A program made the position numbers and the translations under genes. A stretch of DNA of 24,486 nt from a virus, in IMG/VR virus record IMGVR_UViG_3300042091_000324, positions 1-24,486 of that record; one strand, 5' to 3'. Below the pieces are notes generated by a model. It saw only the letters and a list, made by a program, of their open reading frames with translations. It was not told the DNA's origin and did not search any database. Shown here piece by piece: positions 4,869-24,486 of the stretch (its first letter is position 1; every line of letters begins with the position of its first letter).

Positions 4869-7352
4869 ATGGCAATCCCGAAGATCATCGGCGCGCAACG
4901 CGACTTCTCGGCGGGGGAACTCGACGTTGCGATGAAGCGCGCCGATGAAAACCCGGTGATGAAGATCGGCGCGCGGCAAGCGTCGAACTGGCGCATCCTC
5001 AATTCCGGCGCCGCGTCGAACCGCCCTGGGCGCCGCATTCTGTTCCTGGAGACCGGCCGCGTCGAAAAGGTGCTGATGTCGCCGGGGAATGTGTTCTTCC
5101 TCGTCTTTGGCCCCGGCTATCTGCGCGTCTACAACGCCGCTGGCGCGAACGTCTTTTCCTCGACCGTGAAGGGCGACGGTGCGTCGGCAATCTCGTGGAC
5201 AATGGCGACGGTCGGAAATGTTTCTTTCGCTGTCGCGGCAGGATCGCAGCTTTCGATATACATCGCCTACGCCGATGGCGCCCCGAACAACGTCCCACAG
5301 GTTTTGACTTGGGATGGTGTGTCGCAAACGTCGACATGGACGCTGGCGACCTATGCTGAGACTGTTAAAATAACGGGCCAGAAGCGGACGTTATTCTATC
5401 GGATTTCACCACAAAATGTGACGATGCAGCCCAGCGGGTCTACGGGAAACGTGCAACTCACGTTTTCAGCCCAAGTCCTGACGGCTGGCATGATTAACAC
5501 CCGCATGAGTTACGCGGGAGTTCAGGTTATCATCACGAGTGTGACGGCTGCGGATTTTGTGACCCCGGTTGCTGGGCCGTCAAGATATGGGAAAGCGTCG
5601 GTTCAAGGAACATTGCCTGGAACACAGACCTTCGCGATGGGGGATAACCCGGCGATCTACTTCGCGGTCGGCGACTTGGTCAAAGGGTCCATTTCAGGCG
5701 CAGAAGGTATTGTCATCGCGACGTCCGGCACGCCCTACAACAACGGAATGACAGTCCAGTTGATTACGACGGCGACAGGTTCGTTGATTGGTTTCTATGA
5801 TGGCGTCTGGACAGTATCGAACGGAGACACCGTGGCGGGGCCGAGTGGCTCGACTCAAATCGATCCACAGAACGGCCCGAGCGACCAAACTCGAGCGCCG
5901 ATCATCAGCGGCCCACCGACTGCGATCTCGATTTGGGATAACGAGGTTATGAACACGTACTGGGGATATCCGTCCTCAGTTTTCTACGATCAGGAGCGGC
6001 TTGGCCTTTGCAATTTCTCTGCGTTGCCAAGTGCGGTCAGTTGGTCGGCAATCGGTCTTCCCCTCGACATGTACGTTGAGTCGACGGGCGCGTCGGTTAC
6101 GCAGGACTCCGCCATTTTTGAACTGGCGCCAGGCAAATCGCAAGTTCTGTTCGTCCTTCCAGGCATGGAATCGAGCGAATTCATCTTTTGCGACAACGCC
6201 ATCTACTATCTGCCTATCACGTTGCAGAACCCGCTTGAGCCGGGCTCCGTGGCGTTCAATCTCCTAAACTCACAGGGCTGTTCGCCAGGCGTGCGCCCAC
6301 AGCCGGTCCAGCAATCGATTCTGTTCGTCAAAGCCGGCGGCGTCGAGATGGGCGCGGTGCAGGCGCCGGGCGCTTACTACCGCCCCTACGTCGTTGACAG
6401 CGTGTCCGAATTTCACTCGCACCTTTTCACGGCCTCGCCGCCCGTCGCACTCGCGGTCCCGCCGGCGCCGAGCCAATTCGAGGAGAATTACGCCTACGTC
6501 TTACTCGCCGACGGCTCCATGGTCGTCGGCAAATACTCCATTCGACAGGGCTTGCTTGACGTGGGGCCGGACGGAAAGCCGAAGATCGGCTGGCTGCCGT
6601 GGACCGGCGATGGCGAGGTCGAATGGATTTCCGGGTCGGGCGCCGATCTGATCCTGACGACAAACTATCCGGCGAGCGGTGGATCTGGCTTCTCGAACGG
6701 CTTCTCGAGCGGCTTCGGCGGCGGCGGCCTTGTGAGCGTCGTCGAGCGTCTCGACGCCACGCAGTCGCTCGACTGTGCCCTTACAGTGAATAGCCTGCCG
6801 ACGGCGCTGGCGGCTCCGGGCGGCAAGGGGCCGCTGTGGTGGCTCCCCAACGCCAGCGTGACGCTGTTCGACGGCGCGCGGCCGATGGGGACGTATCAGA
6901 TCGACGCCAACGGCAACCTCGTGCCGCAGTTCAACGGCGGCGAGAATCTGTCCAGCGCGACGCTCGTCGCAGGACAACCGTGGACCTCCGTGCTCGAACC
7001 TTTCGTCCCTGACGCGCCGCCCGGCCAGAGCCAGCATCAGCGCATGTTCAAGCGGCGTGTGTCGCGCATGGCCGTCTACGTGTCGAACTCGACCGGCTTC
7101 CTGATGGCGCGGCTGTTCAGCGGGCCAATCACGCCAGCGACCGCCGCCGAGCTGGCGCTGGGGACGGTCATGAACACGTTCCGCATTCCCACATGGAACA
7201 TCGGCGACAACGTCGAGGTCGCGCCGCCGCTGCGCGAAGAGGCATATCGCTGGCGCCCGCTCGGCCGCTCCTACGACCCGCGCATGGCCGTGATCAAGGA
7301 CACGCCGGGTCCTTTGATCATTCACGAGATCGGCTTGGAGGCGAGTCTCTAA
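4869..7352 (+). CDS. Tail nozzle, tail tubular protein B-like (T7 gp12)
   Basis: This 827-aa protein has the size and the N-terminal signature of podophage nozzle proteins: RDFSAGELDVAMKRADEN, a short spacer, then ASNWRILNSGAASNRPGRR, followed by repeated beta-propeller-like strands (VFFLVFGPGYLRVYNAAG). It is expected to form the hexameric tube through which DNA leaves. The C-terminal part includes a Gly- and Ser-rich loop near residues 605-620. Codon use in about 5200-6280 (residues 110-470) is clearly less GC-biased than on either side, suggesting that a central segment was exchanged. The stop overlaps the next start as TAATG. Confidence 0.85.
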   Translation: MAIPKIIGAQRDFSAGELDVAMKRADENPVMKIGARQASNWRILNSGAASNRPGRRILFLETGRVEKVLMSPGNVFFLVFGPGYLRVYNAAGANVFSSTVKGDGASAISWTMATVGNVSFAVAAGSQLSIYIAYADGAPNNVPQVLTWDGVSQTSTWTLATYAETVKITGQKRTLFYRISPQNVTMQPSGSTGNVQLTFSAQVLTAGMINTRMSYAGVQVIITSVTAADFVTPVAGPSRYGKASVQGTLPGTQTFAMGDNPAIYFAVGDLVKGSISGAEGIVIATSGTPYNNGMTVQLITTATGSLIGFYDGVWTVSNGDTVAGPSGSTQIDPQNGPSDQTRAPIISGPPTAISIWDNEVMNTYWGYPSSVFYDQERLGLCNFSALPSAVSWSAIGLPLDMYVESTGASVTQDSAIFELAPGKSQVLFVLPGMESSEFIFCDNAIYYLPITLQNPLEPGSVAFNLLNSQGCSPGVRPQPVQQSILFVKAGGVEMGAVQAPGAYYRPYVVDSVSEFHSHLFTASPPVALAVPPAPSQFEENYAYVLLADGSMVVGKYSIRQGLLDVGPDGKPKIGWLPWTGDGEVEWISGSGADLILTTNYPASGGSGFSNGFSSGFGGGGLVSVVERLDATQSLDCALTVNSLPTALAAPGGKGPLWWLPNASVTLFDGARPMGTYQIDANGNLVPQFNGGENLSSATLVAGQPWTSVLEPFVPDAPPGQSQHQRMFKRRVSRMAVYVSNSTGFLMARLFSGPITPATAAELALGTVMNTFRIPTWNIGDNVEVAPPLREEAYRWRPLGRSYDPRMAVIKDTPGPLIIHEIGLEASL

Positions 7353-7801
7353 TGGGCCAAGCAGCATCCGCAGGCGCCGGCATCTTTGAGGCCGCAGGCT
7401 CGATAGTCCAGGGCATCGGGACTTCCAACGCCGACAAATACCAGGCCGCGGAGCAGGAGCAGGCCGCCCAATACGGCGACCTCAAGGCTGTCCAGACCAA
7501 CGCGGCGCTGACTCGCAACCTTAATCAGACGCTTGGCAACATCGACGCCGTCCGCGCGGCGGCGCGCACCGATCCGACCTCGCCGACAGGCGCGGCCGTG
7601 CGCAACACGGTCGAAGCGACCGGCACCGAGAACAAGAACATTCAGGTTGACTCGATCATGGCGCAGGCGGAACAGGACCGGGCGAACGCGGCCTATCTCC
7701 GCAGCGCGTCGAGCACGGCGCTGCTCAGCGGCACGATTGGCGCGTTCGGCGATTTGCTCAAGGGCTTCTCGGGAATGCCCGGCCTGTCGAGCGGGAGCTA
7801 A
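7352..7801 (+). CDS. Small internal virion protein (T7 gp14-like)
   Basis: The ATG at 7352 overlaps the preceding TAA by one base and gives a 149-aa product. The sequence is helix-forming: an N-terminal Gly/Ala segment (MGQAASAGAGIFEAAGSIV), a Gln/Glu/Ala-rich helical region with an NADKYQAAEQEQAAQYGD motif, a second region with RAAARTDPTSPTGAAVRNT, and a C-terminal Ala/Gly/Leu segment that could insert in membranes. This pattern and its place between the nozzle and the two large internal proteins match T7 gp14-like ejection proteins, which enter the host envelope during DNA delivery. Assignment is by position and composition, since this family is poorly conserved. Confidence 0.65.
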   Translation: MGQAASAGAGIFEAAGSIVQGIGTSNADKYQAAEQEQAAQYGDLKAVQTNAALTRNLNQTLGNIDAVRAAARTDPTSPTGAAVRNTVEATGTENKNIQVDSIMAQAEQDRANAAYLRSASSTALLSGTIGAFGDLLKGFSGMPGLSSGS

Positions 7802-7807
7802 ACGCAC

Positions 7808-10800
7808 ATGCCCGATCTTCTCGACCTCGTCCCGAAGGAAGTCGTCACCAGCCAGCAGCCGCGGGGCCTGAGCCCAGGCCAGGTCGCGCAGCCGTATGAC
7901 GAGCTTGGCAAGTCGCTCCAGACGCTCAGCACGGGCCTGAGCGACGTCGCCGTGCCGCTCGCCGAGAAACAGGCGGCGGCCGATCTCAACCAGCAGAAGG
8001 TGACGCGCGGACCGGATGGCTCGATCCAGGTTGCCAACCCGGCGAACGCCGTCATCTTTGGCGAGGCGGGCAAGGCTTACGAGCGCGCTGTTGTCTCCGG
8101 CACGGTCGCGCAGGCTGGCAATCTCGCCGCGCAGGATATGACGCAACTGCATCGGCAGTTCCCGCTCGACCCGCAAGGCTTCTCGACCGCCGCGCAGGCG
8201 CACCTCGACAAGATCGCGTCGGGCCAGGGCGACTCGATCGCCGGCCAGGAAATCTTGCGCGAAGGCCGCAGCCTCTACACGCAGCATCTCGACGCGATCA
8301 CCAACGCGGCGGCGATGAACGACGTCGACAATTCCAAGAAGTCGATCATGGCGACGATCGACGATCAGAAGAACACCGCGATCGCGCTCGCCCGCCAGCC
8401 AGGTGGAACCGACGCGCCAGAGTTCAAGCAGGCCGTCGCCAAGCTCAACGCCGCCTATGACGCGCTCGGCACGAACCCGCTGTTCAAGACGCCGCAGGAT
8501 CAGATCGACCTCGAAAAGAAGAACACCGTCGCACTGTTGCAGAGCGAGGGGGTGGTCGCGCACATCGACGACACATTCAACAAAAAGAGCAAGGCCGAAG
8601 CGCAGAAGGAACTGACGGATTCTGTCCTCAACAACCCGAACCTGCGCGAGGTCGATCGCGATCGGCTCTATCGTTTCGGCATGGCGCACCTGGAGTTTCT
8701 GACCGGAGATCAGCAGGCGTCCATTCAGGCGAGCCGCCAGACGACGACCGACATCGAGAAGCTGGTCTCGACCGGCAAGCTGCGGCCCGACGACCCGGCG
8801 ATCGGCTCCGCCATCACGCAGGCCAAGGCGATCGGGGACGATTCGAGCGTGCTGCGCTTGCAGGCCGCGATCAAGGTCGCGCCGGCGCTCAACGCCAGCG
8901 GCGCCCTGCCGTCCGGCGCGCGCGGCGCGGCGATGGGCGTCCCTGCCGCCGGCGGCAACGTCGCGAAGTTCCAGCGCTACAATCAGTTCCTTAACGGCGG
9001 CGACGTGCAAAGCGCGCTGCGACTGTCCGAAGGACTGCGCACCAACGCCTATTGGGACGTCAACCACTGGCGAACCGGCTACGGCTCCGACACGGTGACG
9101 CGCGCCGACGGCTCGATCGAGCCTGTCACGGCGACGACGCAGATCACGCCGGCCGACGCTGAGCGCGACCTCCAGCGCCGTACCGGGCTCGCCGCGCAGA
9201 CCGCGCAGGCGGCCGTTGGCGCCGGGACGTGGGCGGCTATGGCTCCCGGCGCGCAGGCGGCGCTGACCAGCGTCGTCTACAACTACGGCCATGTGCCGAG
9301 CGACATCGCGGCCGCGGCTGGAGACGCTTCGGCGATCGCTGCCGCCATTGCCAAGCACGCCAGCGACAACGGCGGCGTCAACTTCCAGCGGCGCAACGCC
9401 GAGGCGAACGCTGTGCTCGGCAAGTTCGGTCTGTCCGGCTTCGAGAGCGCGCCGGTCGCGCCGTCGGCCAATGGGGGCATGCCGTTCAGCCAGACCGACG
9501 TCGCGCGCAATCCCTACCTGCTGTCGGCCTATTTCCGCACGCTAGCGGCTGACCCGGAGGATCGCGGAGAGACGGTCAAGGCAACCGCCGAGGCCGCATT
9601 CAAGGCGATCGACGCCGGGATCAAGCCGTCCGACGACGCCATCACGCTCGTCTATCAGGCGGCCGATCGCGACAAGGCGAAGTTCGGATTTCTCGGTTCA
9701 GAGTTGACCGGCAAGCTGGCGGCGCTCGGCGCGGCCGGCATGGGCGGCCCGGACCGCGCGGCGTTCGCGGACCAAGCGCGCGCCGCCGCCGTTGCCGCTC
9801 CCGACATCTACCATCAGGCGATCGCCACCGCGGCGATGACGCAGGCAAAGCAGCAGGAGCGCCTGCGGGCCGAGCAACCCTACACCGCCGCGGCGAACCG
9901 CTTTGGCACGCCGACGCCGGCCGCGATCGATCCCGCGCATCCTGAATTGGCGGGGCAGGCGCTGGCTCAGCGCGGCGTTCTGTCACAGCACATCGGCGCA
10001 CTCGACGGCACACCGCCGCCGCCGTTGCTTGAGAAGGGCGACGAGCCGGCGCTGCGCGCGCTGTTGCAGGGTCCGCAGGCCGCGCAAGTCCTGCCGCAGA
10101 TCGCCGCGAACATGCGGCCTGACGATCTCGACCGCCTGGCGCGCGAGCCCGCGTTCAAGGAGAGCGTCGTCGGCATGTCGCGCTCGGGCGACCCGGCGAA
10201 GATGAATGCCGCATTCTCGCTGATGGACACACTGGCGCGGCGCAACCCGCTTTCGTTCGATACCGAGTACAAGGATGGCGTGAAGGACCTCAGCGTCTGG
10301 CAGTCGCTGCTCAGCCAATATCCGCCCGCCGAGGCGGCGAAGCGCATGATGCGCGCCAACGATCCGGCGCAGGCCGGCGCGATCGAAGACGCCAAGAAGG
10401 TCGCCGACGAAGCGTTGAAGGCTCTCACGCCCGCCGCCGTGGTCTCAAAATTCTCGACCGGCTGGGGTCCGTTCGGCACGACCGCGCAGGCGCCGGTCAA
10501 TCCTGACGGCGCGGCGAACGCTTCAATGGCGCTGCGGCGCGAGTACGGGACCGCTTATCGCGAGGCGTTTGCTTCGTCTGGCGACGTCCACGCGGCCGAT
10601 GTCGCCGCGACCAACGCGATCAAGATCAAGTTTGCGATCTCGCCGACGAACGGCAACCGCGTCATGGCCTACGCGCCGGAGGGCTACTATCCGCAGGTCG
10701 ACGGCTCGCAAGACTGGATGGCGAAGCAACTCGACGACGACGTCGCCAAGCTGATCAAGACGCAATACGGCTCGAACCTCGACGTGCAGGGAAGGGAAAA

Positions 10801-21299: not shown

Positions 21300-22616
21300 T
21301 TACAGGCAGTCACTGCGCCCCCGAGCGCCCAAGTTCTCGACGGAGACGGCGTCCCAGTAGCCGACGTCCGCGCAGCGCGAGCCCGCGTAGCCGACGTTGA
21401 ACCAGGACCCGCCGATGAAGGCGCCGCGCGGCTGGTCGGGATCGCCGTCGTGGCCCCAGACCCACAAGCCGCCGGTCGCCTGCATCAGACCGAAGCGGCT
21501 GGTGCGCGGCGCGTCGAGGCCAGTCGTCTTGGGATCGCGTTCGGCCGCCGTCCTCTCCGTCACGCCGAACGCCGCGGCGAAGAACTCCTCGAGGCTGAGC
21601 AGCCCCTTGCCGTGCGCCGCCATCACGGCCTGCGCCGTCGCAAAGTCGAACCGCTTGGCCGGCTTGCCCTTGGCGTCGCGCGGCCGATCGTCGCCGTCGG
21701 CGATCGTCGCGCCAAACTTGCTGGTGCCGTCGGCGAGATGATTCACGCCGGTCAGATAGATGTCGCACCAGAAGCGGCCGGCCGACGTGGTCACCAACGT
21801 CATGCCGCGCGGGTCGGGGCAGGCGGGGCGGAAGGCGACGTCCCACAGCGAGAAGGGATTGATCGCCGGCACGTCATCGCCGCCTGCGCGCGCCGGCGCG
21901 TTGCCGCCGGGCGCATAGTGGAACCCGCCGAGCAGCGTCCCGCCGTCTGGAATGCCGATCAGTCGCGCCACCGAAAGCGCGCCACAATCGCAATTGACGA
22001 CGTAGTCGGCGCCGGGGACATAGCCGGGCTCGTCCGCGGCGTTCAAATGAAGAGGAACCGACGTGTCATGAGCGAATGTGTGGCCGGCGAAGATCGTTCC
22101 GGCCCTGACGACCAGGCTGTCGCGGCCCGTCGTCTTGAACACCGAGACGTGCGGGTTTGGTCTGATCAGCGCCGTCGCGTCCGGTTGCGGATTGGTGTGC
22201 AAATTCATGTTCTCAGGCTCCGTGTTTGGCCGACTTTCGAGGGCGGCGAGGGCTTCGTTGATCGCCGCAATTTGAAGGCTGGCAAGATCAGATGCGCTGG
22301 AAAATCTGCCGATGTGCCATTTAGCTCCCCACAGTGCCTCCTTCGCCTTCTCCACAGCCAAGCGGAGGGTGGCAATCTCCGCCGCTTCCCTCAGCCCCTC
22401 CGCCTGGCCTCGGGCTTCGGCGCGGGTTAGAGCGGCAAGGGCGATATGCACAGCTTCCGGAGTAGACTCACGGTTGCATGCGCCGCAGTTATCGGAACCG
22501 AGATCGGCGTGTCGCCGGCACACGGCTTGCTCGGGGTGGGGGCAGACCCACTCCCATTCTTTTGCGCAGACGAGCGCCAGCTCCCGCGCCTCCACCTCAC
22601 GTTCATTAGGGGTCAT
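21300..22616 (-). CDS. C-type-lectin-fold protein with fused N-terminal module
   Basis: This 438-aa protein has two parts. Residues 1-136 form a Cys-containing, helix-rich module (CPHPEQAVCRRHADLGSDNC, then repeated EA/AL helices). From Met137 a second module begins (MNLHTNPQPDATALIRPNPH), and internal initiation is possible because GGAG lies nine bases before that codon. The C-terminus has FGLMQATGGLWVWGHDGD, AFIGGSWFNVGYAGSRCADV and GARGRSD, the pattern of formylglycine-enzyme/C-type-lectin folds such as the Bordetella phage Mtd receptor-binding protein. Many residues at Mtd-like variable sites are NNC codons, but GC-rich coding gives that too. No reverse transcriptase or template repeat is visible. 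A ligand-binding or adhesin role is inferred. The start follows GGAG and overlaps the upstream ORF as ATGA. Confidence 0.7.
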   Translation of the reverse strand: MTPNEREVEARELALVCAKEWEWVCPHPEQAVCRRHADLGSDNCGACNRESTPEAVHIALAALTRAEARGQAEGLREAAEIATLRLAVEKAKEALWGAKWHIGRFSSASDLASLQIAAINEALAALESRPNTEPENMNLHTNPQPDATALIRPNPHVSVFKTTGRDSLVVRAGTIFAGHTFAHDTSVPLHLNAADEPGYVPGADYVVNCDCGALSVARLIGIPDGGTLLGGFHYAPGGNAPARAGGDDVPAINPFSLWDVAFRPACPDPRGMTLVTTSAGRFWCDIYLTGVNHLADGTSKFGATIADGDDRPRDAKGKPAKRFDFATAQAVMAAHGKGLLSLEEFFAAAFGVTERTAAERDPKTTGLDAPRTSRFGLMQATGGLWVWGHDGDPDQPRGAFIGGSWFNVGYAGSRCADVGYWDAVSVENLGARGRSDCL

Positions 22617-22744
22617 CCCAAGTCTCCAAAATATCGAGATCGCCGCCGACGTTGGCGAGATAGTTCATCTTCATTCGGCTCGTGAACACGACGATTAGCT
22701 TCTGCAACACACCGAGGGCACGCCGACTGATCGGCTACCGTCAT
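22613..22744 (-). CDS. Candidate 43-aa protein between DfrB and the lectin gene
   Basis: An ATG at 22744 overlaps the stop of the dihydrofolate reductase gene as TGATG, and the stop overlaps the lectin gene start as ATGA. The product begins MTVADQSACPRCVAEANRRV with a CPRC motif and ends in an Arg-rich stretch. Coupling on both sides supports it. A competing frame (GTG-initiated, ending at a TAA 11 bases into the lectin gene) reads VLQKLIVVFTSRMKMNYLAN followed by an acidic end and looks equally protein-like. The two may be an old frameshifted gene. The choice is uncertain. Confidence 0.35.
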   Translation of the reverse strand: MTVADQSACPRCVAEANRRVHEPNEDELSRQRRRRSRYFGDLG

Positions 22745-22974
22745 CAAGTACCACCTGTACTCATCGTCGGCTCCCATTTTCTCAGCGCGGCCTCGGGGTA
22801 AATCTGCACGCTTCCGCGCTCAAACGCACTTTCGACGCAGTACCCTCGCGGCGTTAACTCGGTCCAATAATACCCGCAGACTTTACCGCGCCAGGATGAC
22901 CCGGAACGCTTCTCGACCGGATCGCCGACCCGGTAGAGCCATGCGCCAGCGAAGGCGTCGGACATGGCGGTCAT
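22744..22974 (-). CDS. dfrB: Type B (R67-like) dihydrofolate reductase
   Basis: This 76-aa protein aligns without gaps to plasmid R67 dihydrofolate reductase as I remember it, from Gly17 to Leu64, with an offset of ten residues and about 29 of 48 identical. Conserved positions include Lys22 (R67 Lys32), Trp28 (Trp38), and the pore motif VQIY at 56-59 with Gln57, Ile58 and Tyr59 (Gln67, Ile68, Tyr69). LTPRGYCVES corresponds to LTPEGYAVES. These enzymes are SH3-like barrels that form a tetramer with one central active pore, reduce dihydrofolate with NADPH, and are insensitive to trimethoprim. The shorter N-terminus removes only a region known to be dispensable. The start has GGAG eight bases upstream and overlaps the previous gene as ATGA. 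Activity is inferred. Confidence 0.85.
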   Translation of the reverse strand: MTAMSDAFAGAWLYRVGDPVEKRSGSSWRGKVCGYYWTELTPRGYCVESAFERGSVQIYPEAALRKWEPTMSTGGT

Positions 22975-23132
22975 TTCGTCGGCTCCGTGGGTGGAGGGGG
23001 AAGGGGACGCCCATCGTCGTCACACGCGATTGTGAGAAGCCAATCAGGGTCATTCTCAGCAACCACGGCGTCCCCAGCAGTCCATACACACCAAGTTCCA
23101 TCTTTCCAGACTGTAATTGAGGGCTTGTTCAT
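22971..23132 (-). CDS. Small hypothetical protein, 53 aa
   Basis: An ATG at 23132 overlaps the stop of the DUF551-like gene (ATGA), and the stop overlaps the ATG of the dihydrofolate reductase gene (ATGA). The 53-residue product begins MNKPSITVWKDGTWCVWTAG, continues with an acidic stretch (ENDPDWLL, then CDDDG) and ends in a Pro-rich tail (RPLPPPPTEPTK). It has Trp residues spaced as in small beta proteins. I do not recognise the family. The tight coupling on both sides and the sensible composition support it as a real gene. Confidence 0.65.
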   Translation of the reverse strand: MNKPSITVWKDGTWCVWTAGDAVVAENDPDWLLTIACDDDGRPLPPPPTEPTK

Positions 23133-23824
23133 TTTGGCGGCTCCGGTAGTTGTTTCCAGATTGTGAGAGTGCCTTCGCTCTCGGATTTGTAGTTAGTCCC
23201 AAAATCCGATTGGTTCTCAATGATGCCGTTGCCTTCATGTGACGCCTGCCAACGGCCTTGCGCCCAAAAATAAGCGGCAACGGAACTGTTTGTCGGCCCC
23301 CACGCGAGAATCTGTCCGCCATTCCTCGGCGCGCTCTCGATTGGCCTCCACGCATTCTCCGCCCGCGCCTCGTCCCTCTCACGCTCGCACGCGGCGAGAC
23401 GGGCGGAGAGTTGGCCGCGCTCGGCGGAGAGAGCTTCTAGAAAGGCGGCGAGCGAGCTCCGGCCGCTGCTAGGCAATGCCTGTCCGTCGCGCAGATTGGC
23501 AACAATTGCCGCTATCGCCTTCGGGTTTGTATTGATCTTCCCCACCACAGACGCCGAGAGCATCGCGCGAAATACAGCGGCGGCAAGATCGACACGTCGC
23601 GGCCACGCCGGCGGTATGACGGCCTCTCCTGCGCGGTCCATCTCCTCCGTCACGTCCTCAAGCCCCTCGGCGATGAGGTCGACAATGGCGCGGGACGCTG
23701 TTTTAGTCCAACGCTCTCCGCCTTCTGGCCAGTCCTCACCTGTTTTTGCGACATGGCGAAGCTGTTTTAGGATTTTGTTTTCGACTTCCTCGACCAGCTT
23801 CTCTCGGACGGCTTGTGTGGTCAT
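23129..23824 (-). CDS. Phage protein with C-terminal DUF551-like domain
   Basis: This 231-aa protein has a helical N-terminal region (residues 1-155) with a coiled-coil-like part (LEALSAERGQLSARLAACER) and a C-terminal domain starting WRPIESAPRNGGQILAWG and ending in IWKQLPEPPK. The W-x-PI-x-SAP opening and the W-x-x-LPEPP ending are the marks of DUF551, a domain common in phage and prophage accessory genes and of unknown function. The start overlaps the stop of the ATPase gene as ATGA. Its own stop overlaps the 53-aa gene. No catalytic residues can be assigned. Confidence 0.7.
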   Translation of the reverse strand: MTTQAVREKLVEEVENKILKQLRHVAKTGEDWPEGGERWTKTASRAIVDLIAEGLEDVTEEMDRAGEAVIPPAWPRRVDLAAAVFRAMLSASVVGKINTNPKAIAAIVANLRDGQALPSSGRSSLAAFLEALSAERGQLSARLAACERERDEARAENAWRPIESAPRNGGQILAWGPTNSSVAAYFWAQGRWQASHEGNGIIENQSDFGTNYKSESEGTLTIWKQLPEPPK

Positions 23825-24486
23825 GGCGCGATCTCCTCCTCGCCGGCGGTCGCGGCGACGCGCGCCTTCCAGTCGTCGAGTTGTTTGCGCCCGACGGCGT
23901 CGCGCTCGGCCTTCGTCCGCGCCTTCCAGAATGCCTCCAGCGGGGCAAGCGTCGACATGGATGCCGCCGCGTCACCTTCGGCCAGGAGACCAGCGAGATC
24001 GCTCGGCATGACCAGCGGCACGTCGCCACGCGCCCACTCCGCCAGGAGCCGCCCCGTCGTCTCGTCAAGGGGCTTGTCCTCGGCGAAGATGTGCTCGAAT
24101 TGTTGCGGCAGTTTCATCATCAGCTTCTCGCCGACGTGGTCGCTGCGCCAACTCGGAACGCCGCCCGCCTTTGGCAGCAGCAGACAGTTGACCGTCATCT
24201 CGAACAGCAGTTCCTCGCCTGCGATCGGCATGAACCCCATCTCGATCGGCTGGCCGCCTTTGACCGGCTTCGTCTTCTCCTTTGCGCGGAAGCAGAAGAT
24301 GAAGTTGGCGTTGAGTTGCAGCAGGCCGGTGATGAACTGTTGGCGCAGCTTGGCCGGCTTGATCCACGCCGCCAGCTTGACGCGCTCGCGCTTCGCCATG
24401 TCGTCGCCGGCCATGCGCTCGACTTCGGCTTCCTGCGTCAGCAGATAGCCGCCGATGCCAATGTGCTCATGGCTGAGCGAGTCGAC
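23821..24486 (-). CDS. Phage AAA_24-type ATPase, C-terminal part (5' truncated)
   Basis: The frame is open to the right edge, so the 221 visible residues are the C-terminal part. They start with VDSLSHEHIGIGGYLL, whose VDSLS is a Walker B-type strand, then EVERMAGDDMAKRERVKL, AAWIKPAKLRQQFITGLLQL and FIFCFRAKEK. This order is the one seen in phage RecA-like ATPases of the AAA_24 family, linked to recombination or replication. The Walker A motif lies outside the window. The C-terminal region has a charged helix (APLEAFWKARTKAERDAVG). The gene leads an operon of small coupled genes, which marks the - strand as the early DNA-metabolism region. Confidence 0.7.
   Translation of the reverse strand, partial: VDSLSHEHIGIGGYLLTQEAEVERMAGDDMAKRERVKLAAWIKPAKLRQQFITGLLQLNANFIFCFRAKEKTKPVKGGQPIEMGFMPIAGEELLFEMTVNCLLLPKAGGVPSWRSDHVGEKLMMKLPQQFEHIFAEDKPLDETTGRLLAEWARGDVPLVMPSDLAGLLAEGDAAASMSTLAPLEAFWKARTKAERDAVGRKQLDDWKARVAATAGEEEIAP

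Follow-up and report, generated by a model that had tools for sequence, protein, structure and literature searches.

The minus strand of the window, by which we mean the whole stretch of DNA analysed here (a complete IMG/VR record of 24,486 bases), carries at 22744-22974 a 76-aa open reading frame whose product is, judged by its sequence, a genuine homologue of the R67 or type B dihydrofolate reductases (DfrB), the match lying far beyond chance. It is probable (roughly 0.6) that this protein is an active, tetrameric type B dihydrofolate reductase (DHFR), made from a coupled phage operon and providing an accessory supply of reduced folate or pterin. The proposal is based on homology, fold prediction, pore residues, purifying selection, coupling and, at the level of the family, the association of some relatives with pterin and thymidylate genes. 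We infer the tetramer, the activity, its substrate and what the gene does for this phage, the activity by analogy with close homologues from a Vibrio phage and from Methylobacterium (PMC9835603); the role is put forward with less confidence than the activity.

The DfrB gene product

The frame begins with ATG and reads from 22974 to 22744; the plus strand across the same interval is interrupted by stops. The product matches Pfam DHFR_2 over residues 10-66 with 67.3 bits (cut-off 25, E 1.1e-18), this being its only DHFR match in Pfam, with none to DHFR_1, the family of FolA and DfrA. DfrB was likewise the only NCBIfam model matched (E 2e-20), and the score against NF000331, the model for acquired trimethoprim-resistance DfrB, was 72.4 bits, under the cut-off of 137. 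By sequence, the sole match in the PDB is R67 (four distinct R67 sequences), aligned without gaps over residues 13-66 (E 8.7e-16), which make up the SH3-like core. This match is specific, because the next structures are generic SH3-like folds with E of about 0.01. The AlphaFold2 monomer, built with an alignment of the fetched loci, has a pLDDT of 87.5 overall and block means of at least 94 for residues 11-70, and superposes on 1VIE with an rmsd of 0.8 Å over 59 columns (TM 0.94).

K22, W28 and V56-Q57-I58-Y59 correspond in the alignment to K32, W38 and V66-Q67-I68-Y69 of R67, in the established residue numbering, for which PMC9835603 was also used. K22, Q57, I58 and Y59 are pore residues and W28 belongs to the dimer interface; R67 residues W45 and H62 are replaced by Y and E, respectively. 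The original prediction had been of an R67-like DHFR with Lys22, Trp28 and VQIY at 56-59 in a gap-free match. All of these residues are present, the R67 alignment has no gaps, the DfrB family profiles proposed as a check do align, and the predicted fold agrees, so that this identification stands, with the gene on the minus strand.

Genome and operon context

The G+C content of the window is about 0.58-0.69 in 3-kb blocks, and no tRNA genes were found in it. Its plus strand carries the virion module, comprising major head, tail and internal virion proteins, endolysin-like domains and a lipase. On the minus strand a coupled chain of genes runs from the C-terminal part of a P-loop ATPase (23821-24486, the gene being cut by the contig end) through a 231-aa protein (23129-23824), a 53-aa protein (22971-23132), DfrB and a possible 43-aa ORF (22613-22744) to a 438-aa Mtd-like tail protein (21300-22616), where it ends. 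The 231-aa protein has a weakly DUF551-like C-terminus (16 bits, below cut-off); the 53-aa protein has no Pfam match and no assigned function, and the 43-aa ORF has no family match. Four-base ATGA overlaps occur at 23824/23821, 23132/23129 and 22974/22971, the last joining the stop of the 53-aa gene to the DfrB start. The DfrB stop overlaps the ATG of the 43-aa ORF by one base at 22744 (TGATG), and this ORF overlaps the 438-aa ORF by four bases. These overlaps bear out the expectation of a coupled phage operon around DfrB.

The ATPase fragment matches phrog_1366 (E 7.6e-14), a family with no assigned function; the label holds because in the full-length homologue from record L003 there is a Walker A sequence, GPSGSGKT, as well as an AAA_24 match. 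Of the "recombination ATPase" that had been predicted here, the second word is upheld by this homologue and the first is presumptive. In the 438-aa protein, residues 144-437 constitute a tail protein of phrog_11262 (240 bits) with an Mtd-like domain (Pfam mtd_2nd, 28.9 bits), and the N-terminal ~135 residues look as though another small phage protein had been joined to it. Mtd-type receptor-binding proteins are diversified by retroelements in other phages; no reverse transcriptase match was obtained among the window ORFs scanned. An anti-defence or defence function was considered and rejected, PADLOC having given nothing above noise for DfrB or its neighbours.

Records L003 and L004, which represent sister phages, are identical to the window at 92% of DNA positions in the ATPase gene and at 87-93% over most of the virion module that aligns. 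The stretch from the ATPase to the tail gene is replaced in both except for the DfrB gene (71% DNA identity over 161 bases), whose product is kept at 59% protein identity (L003, 3566-7900, and L004, 3290-7660, compared with 21300-23824 of the window). These are the only 2 of 50 records related by ATPase or capsid, several of them fragments, that have DfrB, and it is therefore clearly an accessory gene in this phage lineage.

Conservation of the pore in viral homologues

In IMG/VR, 225 contigs encode DfrB relatives according to a scan for the VQIYP block. Since VQIYP is itself part of the active site, a separate scan relied on the W-G-V-G-Y block only, and VQIY was kept in 34 of the 36 complete sequences that it returned. 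The two exceptions, VQIF in L109 (1897-2440, frame) and VQVW in L128 (110-298), are natural pore-motif variants that would be useful in activity tests. Among 41 non-redundant viral homologues K32 and W38 never change, beside positions 31, 33, 34 and 37, which vary freely, and K32 is invariant also in non-redundant sets of 17 viral and 21 genomic sequences. Viral DfrB has a median dN/dS of 0.08 over 475 pairs and of 0.16 over 38 disjoint pairs; between the window gene and that of L003, dN is 0.24 and dS 1.08. Together, the conservation of K32 and VQIY and the low dN/dS indicate that the DfrB pore is under strong purifying selection in phages. Such selection argues for a ligand-binding or catalytic role, and names no substrate.

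Folate, pterin and thymidylate genes near DfrB

FolE, PTPS or QueE-like genes lie near DfrB in 36 of 43 contigs of a freshwater phage clade, and in the examples read FolE (L044, L055) or PTPS (L061) is directly upstream, overlapping the DfrB start by ATGA. The FolE proteins of this clade match the NCBIfam FolE equivalog with 319 bits and the PTPS-family proteins score 53-58 bits in Pfam; some zinc-ligand histidines of the PTPS-like proteins seem, by eye, to be lost. The pattern recurred in a further scan, including contigs of 111 kb and 367 kb, and one freshwater subclade (L248-L254) is without FolE, PTPS or QueE-like neighbours. FolE is present in 14 of 50 DfrB records, all of the freshwater clade, compared with 393 of 50,697 INPHARED records (0.8%). 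At L044 (9255-10186), L061 (9492-10195) and L096 (9186-13693), DfrB is coupled to FolE or PTPS with a QueE-like radical SAM gene nearby. Our search, which spanned part of the literature, turned up no publication that connects phage DfrB with GTP cyclohydrolase.

L267, a 39-kb IMG/VR record with a phage-type NAMPT (nicotinamide phosphoribosyltransferase) and HNH endonucleases, has in order dCMP deaminase (5983-6423), DfrB (7995-8180) overlapping ThyA (8173-9285), and dUTPase (9311-9913). The interval 5983-9913 is a phage dTMP gene cluster with a type B, not a FolA-type, DHFR. In the DfrB-bearing Schitoviridae, ZX86 and phiM9, ThyA is found elsewhere in the genome. Across the 50 DfrB-bearing phage records, ThyA occurs in 6 (INPHARED background 8%) and ThyX in 2, ThyA is adjacent to DfrB in L267 alone, and FolA-type DHFR occurs in none. 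A general link between DfrB and thymidylate synthase was rejected, these counts being near background. Because the FolE/PTPS link belongs to one DfrB clade and the ThyA adjacency to one record, the independent events are few.

A native role in thymidylate supply had been suggested for the window gene. Such a role is plausible for the family, with support from the gene context in L267 and from the phages that carry ThyA elsewhere; for the window phage it is unproven, the 24.5-kb fragment having no ThyX match, no annotated thymidylate synthase and no recognised pterin gene. The position of relatives beside folate, pterin and thymidylate genes suggests that phage DfrB has a real metabolic job.

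Origin and proposed function

In a tree of 82 DfrB domain sequences, which is unrooted, poorly resolved and based on 50 alignable columns, viral, chromosomal and plasmid rows are intermixed. The window DfrB groups, with support of 95/94, with rows from phages, Ensifer and Novosphingobium; the integron forms group weakly with chromosomal forms of Oxalobacteraceae and one viral row. Some chromosomal relatives are set among phage-like genes and are therefore probably prophage-borne; those resembling DfrB1 mostly are not so placed. With so few columns, poor resolution and no root, the tree was rejected as support for a derivation of integron dfrB from phages. The suggested phage reservoir thus survives in one part: phage homologues exist, and had already been reported, and a phage source for clinical dfrB is unsupported by this mixed tree.

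Two further arrangements were observed. On rhizobial plasmids, a distinct DfrB (AAKKGRASW form) lies beside a recombinase and a Tn3 transposase, outside integrons (L022, 7338-8183). At L006 (7563-8189), L009 (5692-6195) and L007 (7671-8327), the DfrB domain is fused, in mosaic fashion, behind unrelated small phage modules.

In the mechanism that we propose, the enzyme would be a ring of four DfrB subunits enclosing one pore at its centre (with W38 conserved and H62 replaced). K22 would hold the anionic ends of NADPH and dihydrofolate, and Q57, I58 and Y59 would form the floor and ceiling of the pore. The pterin would receive its hydride directly from NADPH, with no need of a catalytic acid, in a reaction expected to be insensitive to trimethoprim. 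Translated from the coupled phage operon, the accessory enzyme would supply reduced folate or reduced pterin to phage nucleotide metabolism. The trimethoprim resistance given by a Vibrio phage homologue speaks for the proposal. Against it stand a Pseudomonas phage homologue that gave no resistance (PMC9835603), the changes at W45 and H62, the fact that the genomes are uncultured, the thymidylate synthase and pterin genes not recognised in the window fragment, the low DfrB count (2 of 50) among the relatives of this phage, the near-background ThyA and ThyX counts, and the small number of independent events.

That the phage recently captured a trimethoprim-resistance cassette would fit the membership of the gene in the same family as dfrB and its single NCBIfam match, the DfrB resistance model. 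Nevertheless, such a capture is extremely improbable and was rejected: the 72 bits fall far short of the resistance-model cut-off of 137, identity to clinical DfrB is about 57% or less, the closest relatives are phage genes, and neighbouring genes overlap DfrB on both sides. Over 200 bases on its 3' side the gene has no GTTRRRY or RYYYAAC core sites, and the tight coupling leaves no room for an integron attC, the DfrB stop overlapping the next ATG; the operon neighbours match no transposase or integrase families. This agrees with the original prediction that neither attC nor transposase would be found nearby, a gene-cassette or mobile-element context being usual for resistance DfrB and not strictly defining. 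A non-catalytic phage function for the SH3-like module, such as the binding of a ligand, a protein or nucleic acid by an early-region protein, with any DHFR activity as a by-product of the pore, is unlikely but deserves more weight, and resembles a suggestion made for DfrB ancestors (PMC9835603). It would account for the fusion of the domain to long unrelated N-termini in several temperate phages (RHph_N3_2, PS-1, Vibrio 1.030.O), for the mostly hypothetical neighbours, and for the 42 of 50 DfrB records without thymidylate synthase. It fits poorly with an invariant K32 and near-invariant Q67, I68 and Y69 in independently sampled viral homologues, with standalone DfrB genes in many lineages, and with those phages in which DfrB is coupled directly to FolE, PTPS or ThyA.

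More doubtful still is that the protein is an NADPH-dependent reductase of another pterin, for example an oxidised 6-carboxy-dihydropterin in a phage 7-deazaguanine pathway. The freshwater-clade DfrB does sit with FolE, PTPS-family and QueE-like genes, the route from GTP to deazaguanines begins with FolE and QueD (PMC6884629), and the symmetric tunnel of DfrB1 binds substrate and cofactor promiscuously (PMC9835603). However, neither the window phage nor its relatives show FolE, PTPS or QueE-like genes, the freshwater PTPS and QueE proteins are under NCBI equivalog cut-offs, QueC is essentially missing from the freshwater-clade DfrB phages (1/15, weak), the known deazaguanine pathway has no step needing such a reductase, and L267 pairs DfrB with ThyA instead. 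Replacement of QueF in that pathway was also rejected, the weak QueF matches lying inside FolE genes and QueC being all but lacking. 

The strict conservation of the pore in many environmental phages, some of which have DfrB physically coupled to genes for GTP cyclohydrolase I, PTPS or thymidylate synthase, points to a real reductase role, and the coupled loci supply specific genes and phages for testing it. We hold only tentatively, with somewhat less than even confidence, that phage DfrB proteins are dedicated, selected reductases of dihydrofolate or dihydropterin that replace FolA-type DHFR in the folate, pterin and thymidylate pathways of phages, as opposed to a non-catalytic fold whose activity is accidental; the resistance enzymes would in that case descend from an old, largely phage-carried family.

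Comparison with known systems

Phage-borne type B DHFR is already known and is no discovery of the present work, because it was reported in 2020, 2023 and 2025 and is annotated in INPHARED and GenBank phage records; 25 INPHARED records match DfrB, many of them annotated as dihydrofolate reductase. DfrB2-like ORFs were described in four freshwater viral contigs in 2020 (Moon et al., PMC7265639), where dfrB function was untested, and eight dfrB genes among lytic phages in 2025 (PMC12466917), with identities to known DfrB of 67% and 50-72%, respectively. Like the window gene, these are of type B, come from phages and were recognised by their sequence. DfrB-H3 from a Pseudomonas phage and DfrB-H4 from a Vibrio phage were described by Lemay-St-Denis et al. 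2023 (PMC9835603). DfrB-H4 gave trimethoprim resistance when expressed in E. coli; DfrB-H3 gave none and was poorly expressed, perhaps with too little soluble protein. The same authors describe R67-type DHFR as an enzyme of unknown origin and natural function, and favour the idea that its reductase activity was a chance property before trimethoprim was used. Added here are the near-invariant pore in an independent viral sample, the low dN/dS, the FolE/PTPS coupling, the L267 cluster and the finding of FolA in 0 of 50 DfrB records. The window gene is one more standalone DfrB, and its branch also holds genes of other phages and of Ensifer and Novosphingobium replicons.

R67 (DfrB1) and the integron DfrB enzymes resemble the window protein in the SH3-like fold, in K32, W38 and VQIY, and in length (78 as against 76 aa), with a core identity of about 57% or less. 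Unlike R67, the window DfrB is encoded in a phage operon instead of a cassette, has a shorter and different N-terminus, and carries the changes W45 to Y and H62 to E; unlike the integron enzymes, it scores below the NCBI cut-off for resistance DfrB. DfrB-H3 and DfrB-H4 are likewise phage-borne with the same pore residues, but are multi-domain proteins of 167 and 218 aa (apparently records L009 and L007), whereas the window protein is standalone. Small standalone genes in phage replication regions are also found in Rhizobium Schitoviridae, Sinorhizobium phiM9 and Podoviridae ctOsX528, several of them already annotated as "dihydrofolate reductase"; their products are 47-65% identical to the window DfrB, and in the Schitoviridae form one residue is added and the Ser that precedes VQIY is replaced by Pro. 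The DHFR of T4 (FolA/DfrA type), to which the original prediction drew a parallel, is unrelated to DfrB in fold and mechanism; DfrB would do the same chemical job beside thymidylate synthase, and L267 is such an operon with DfrB.
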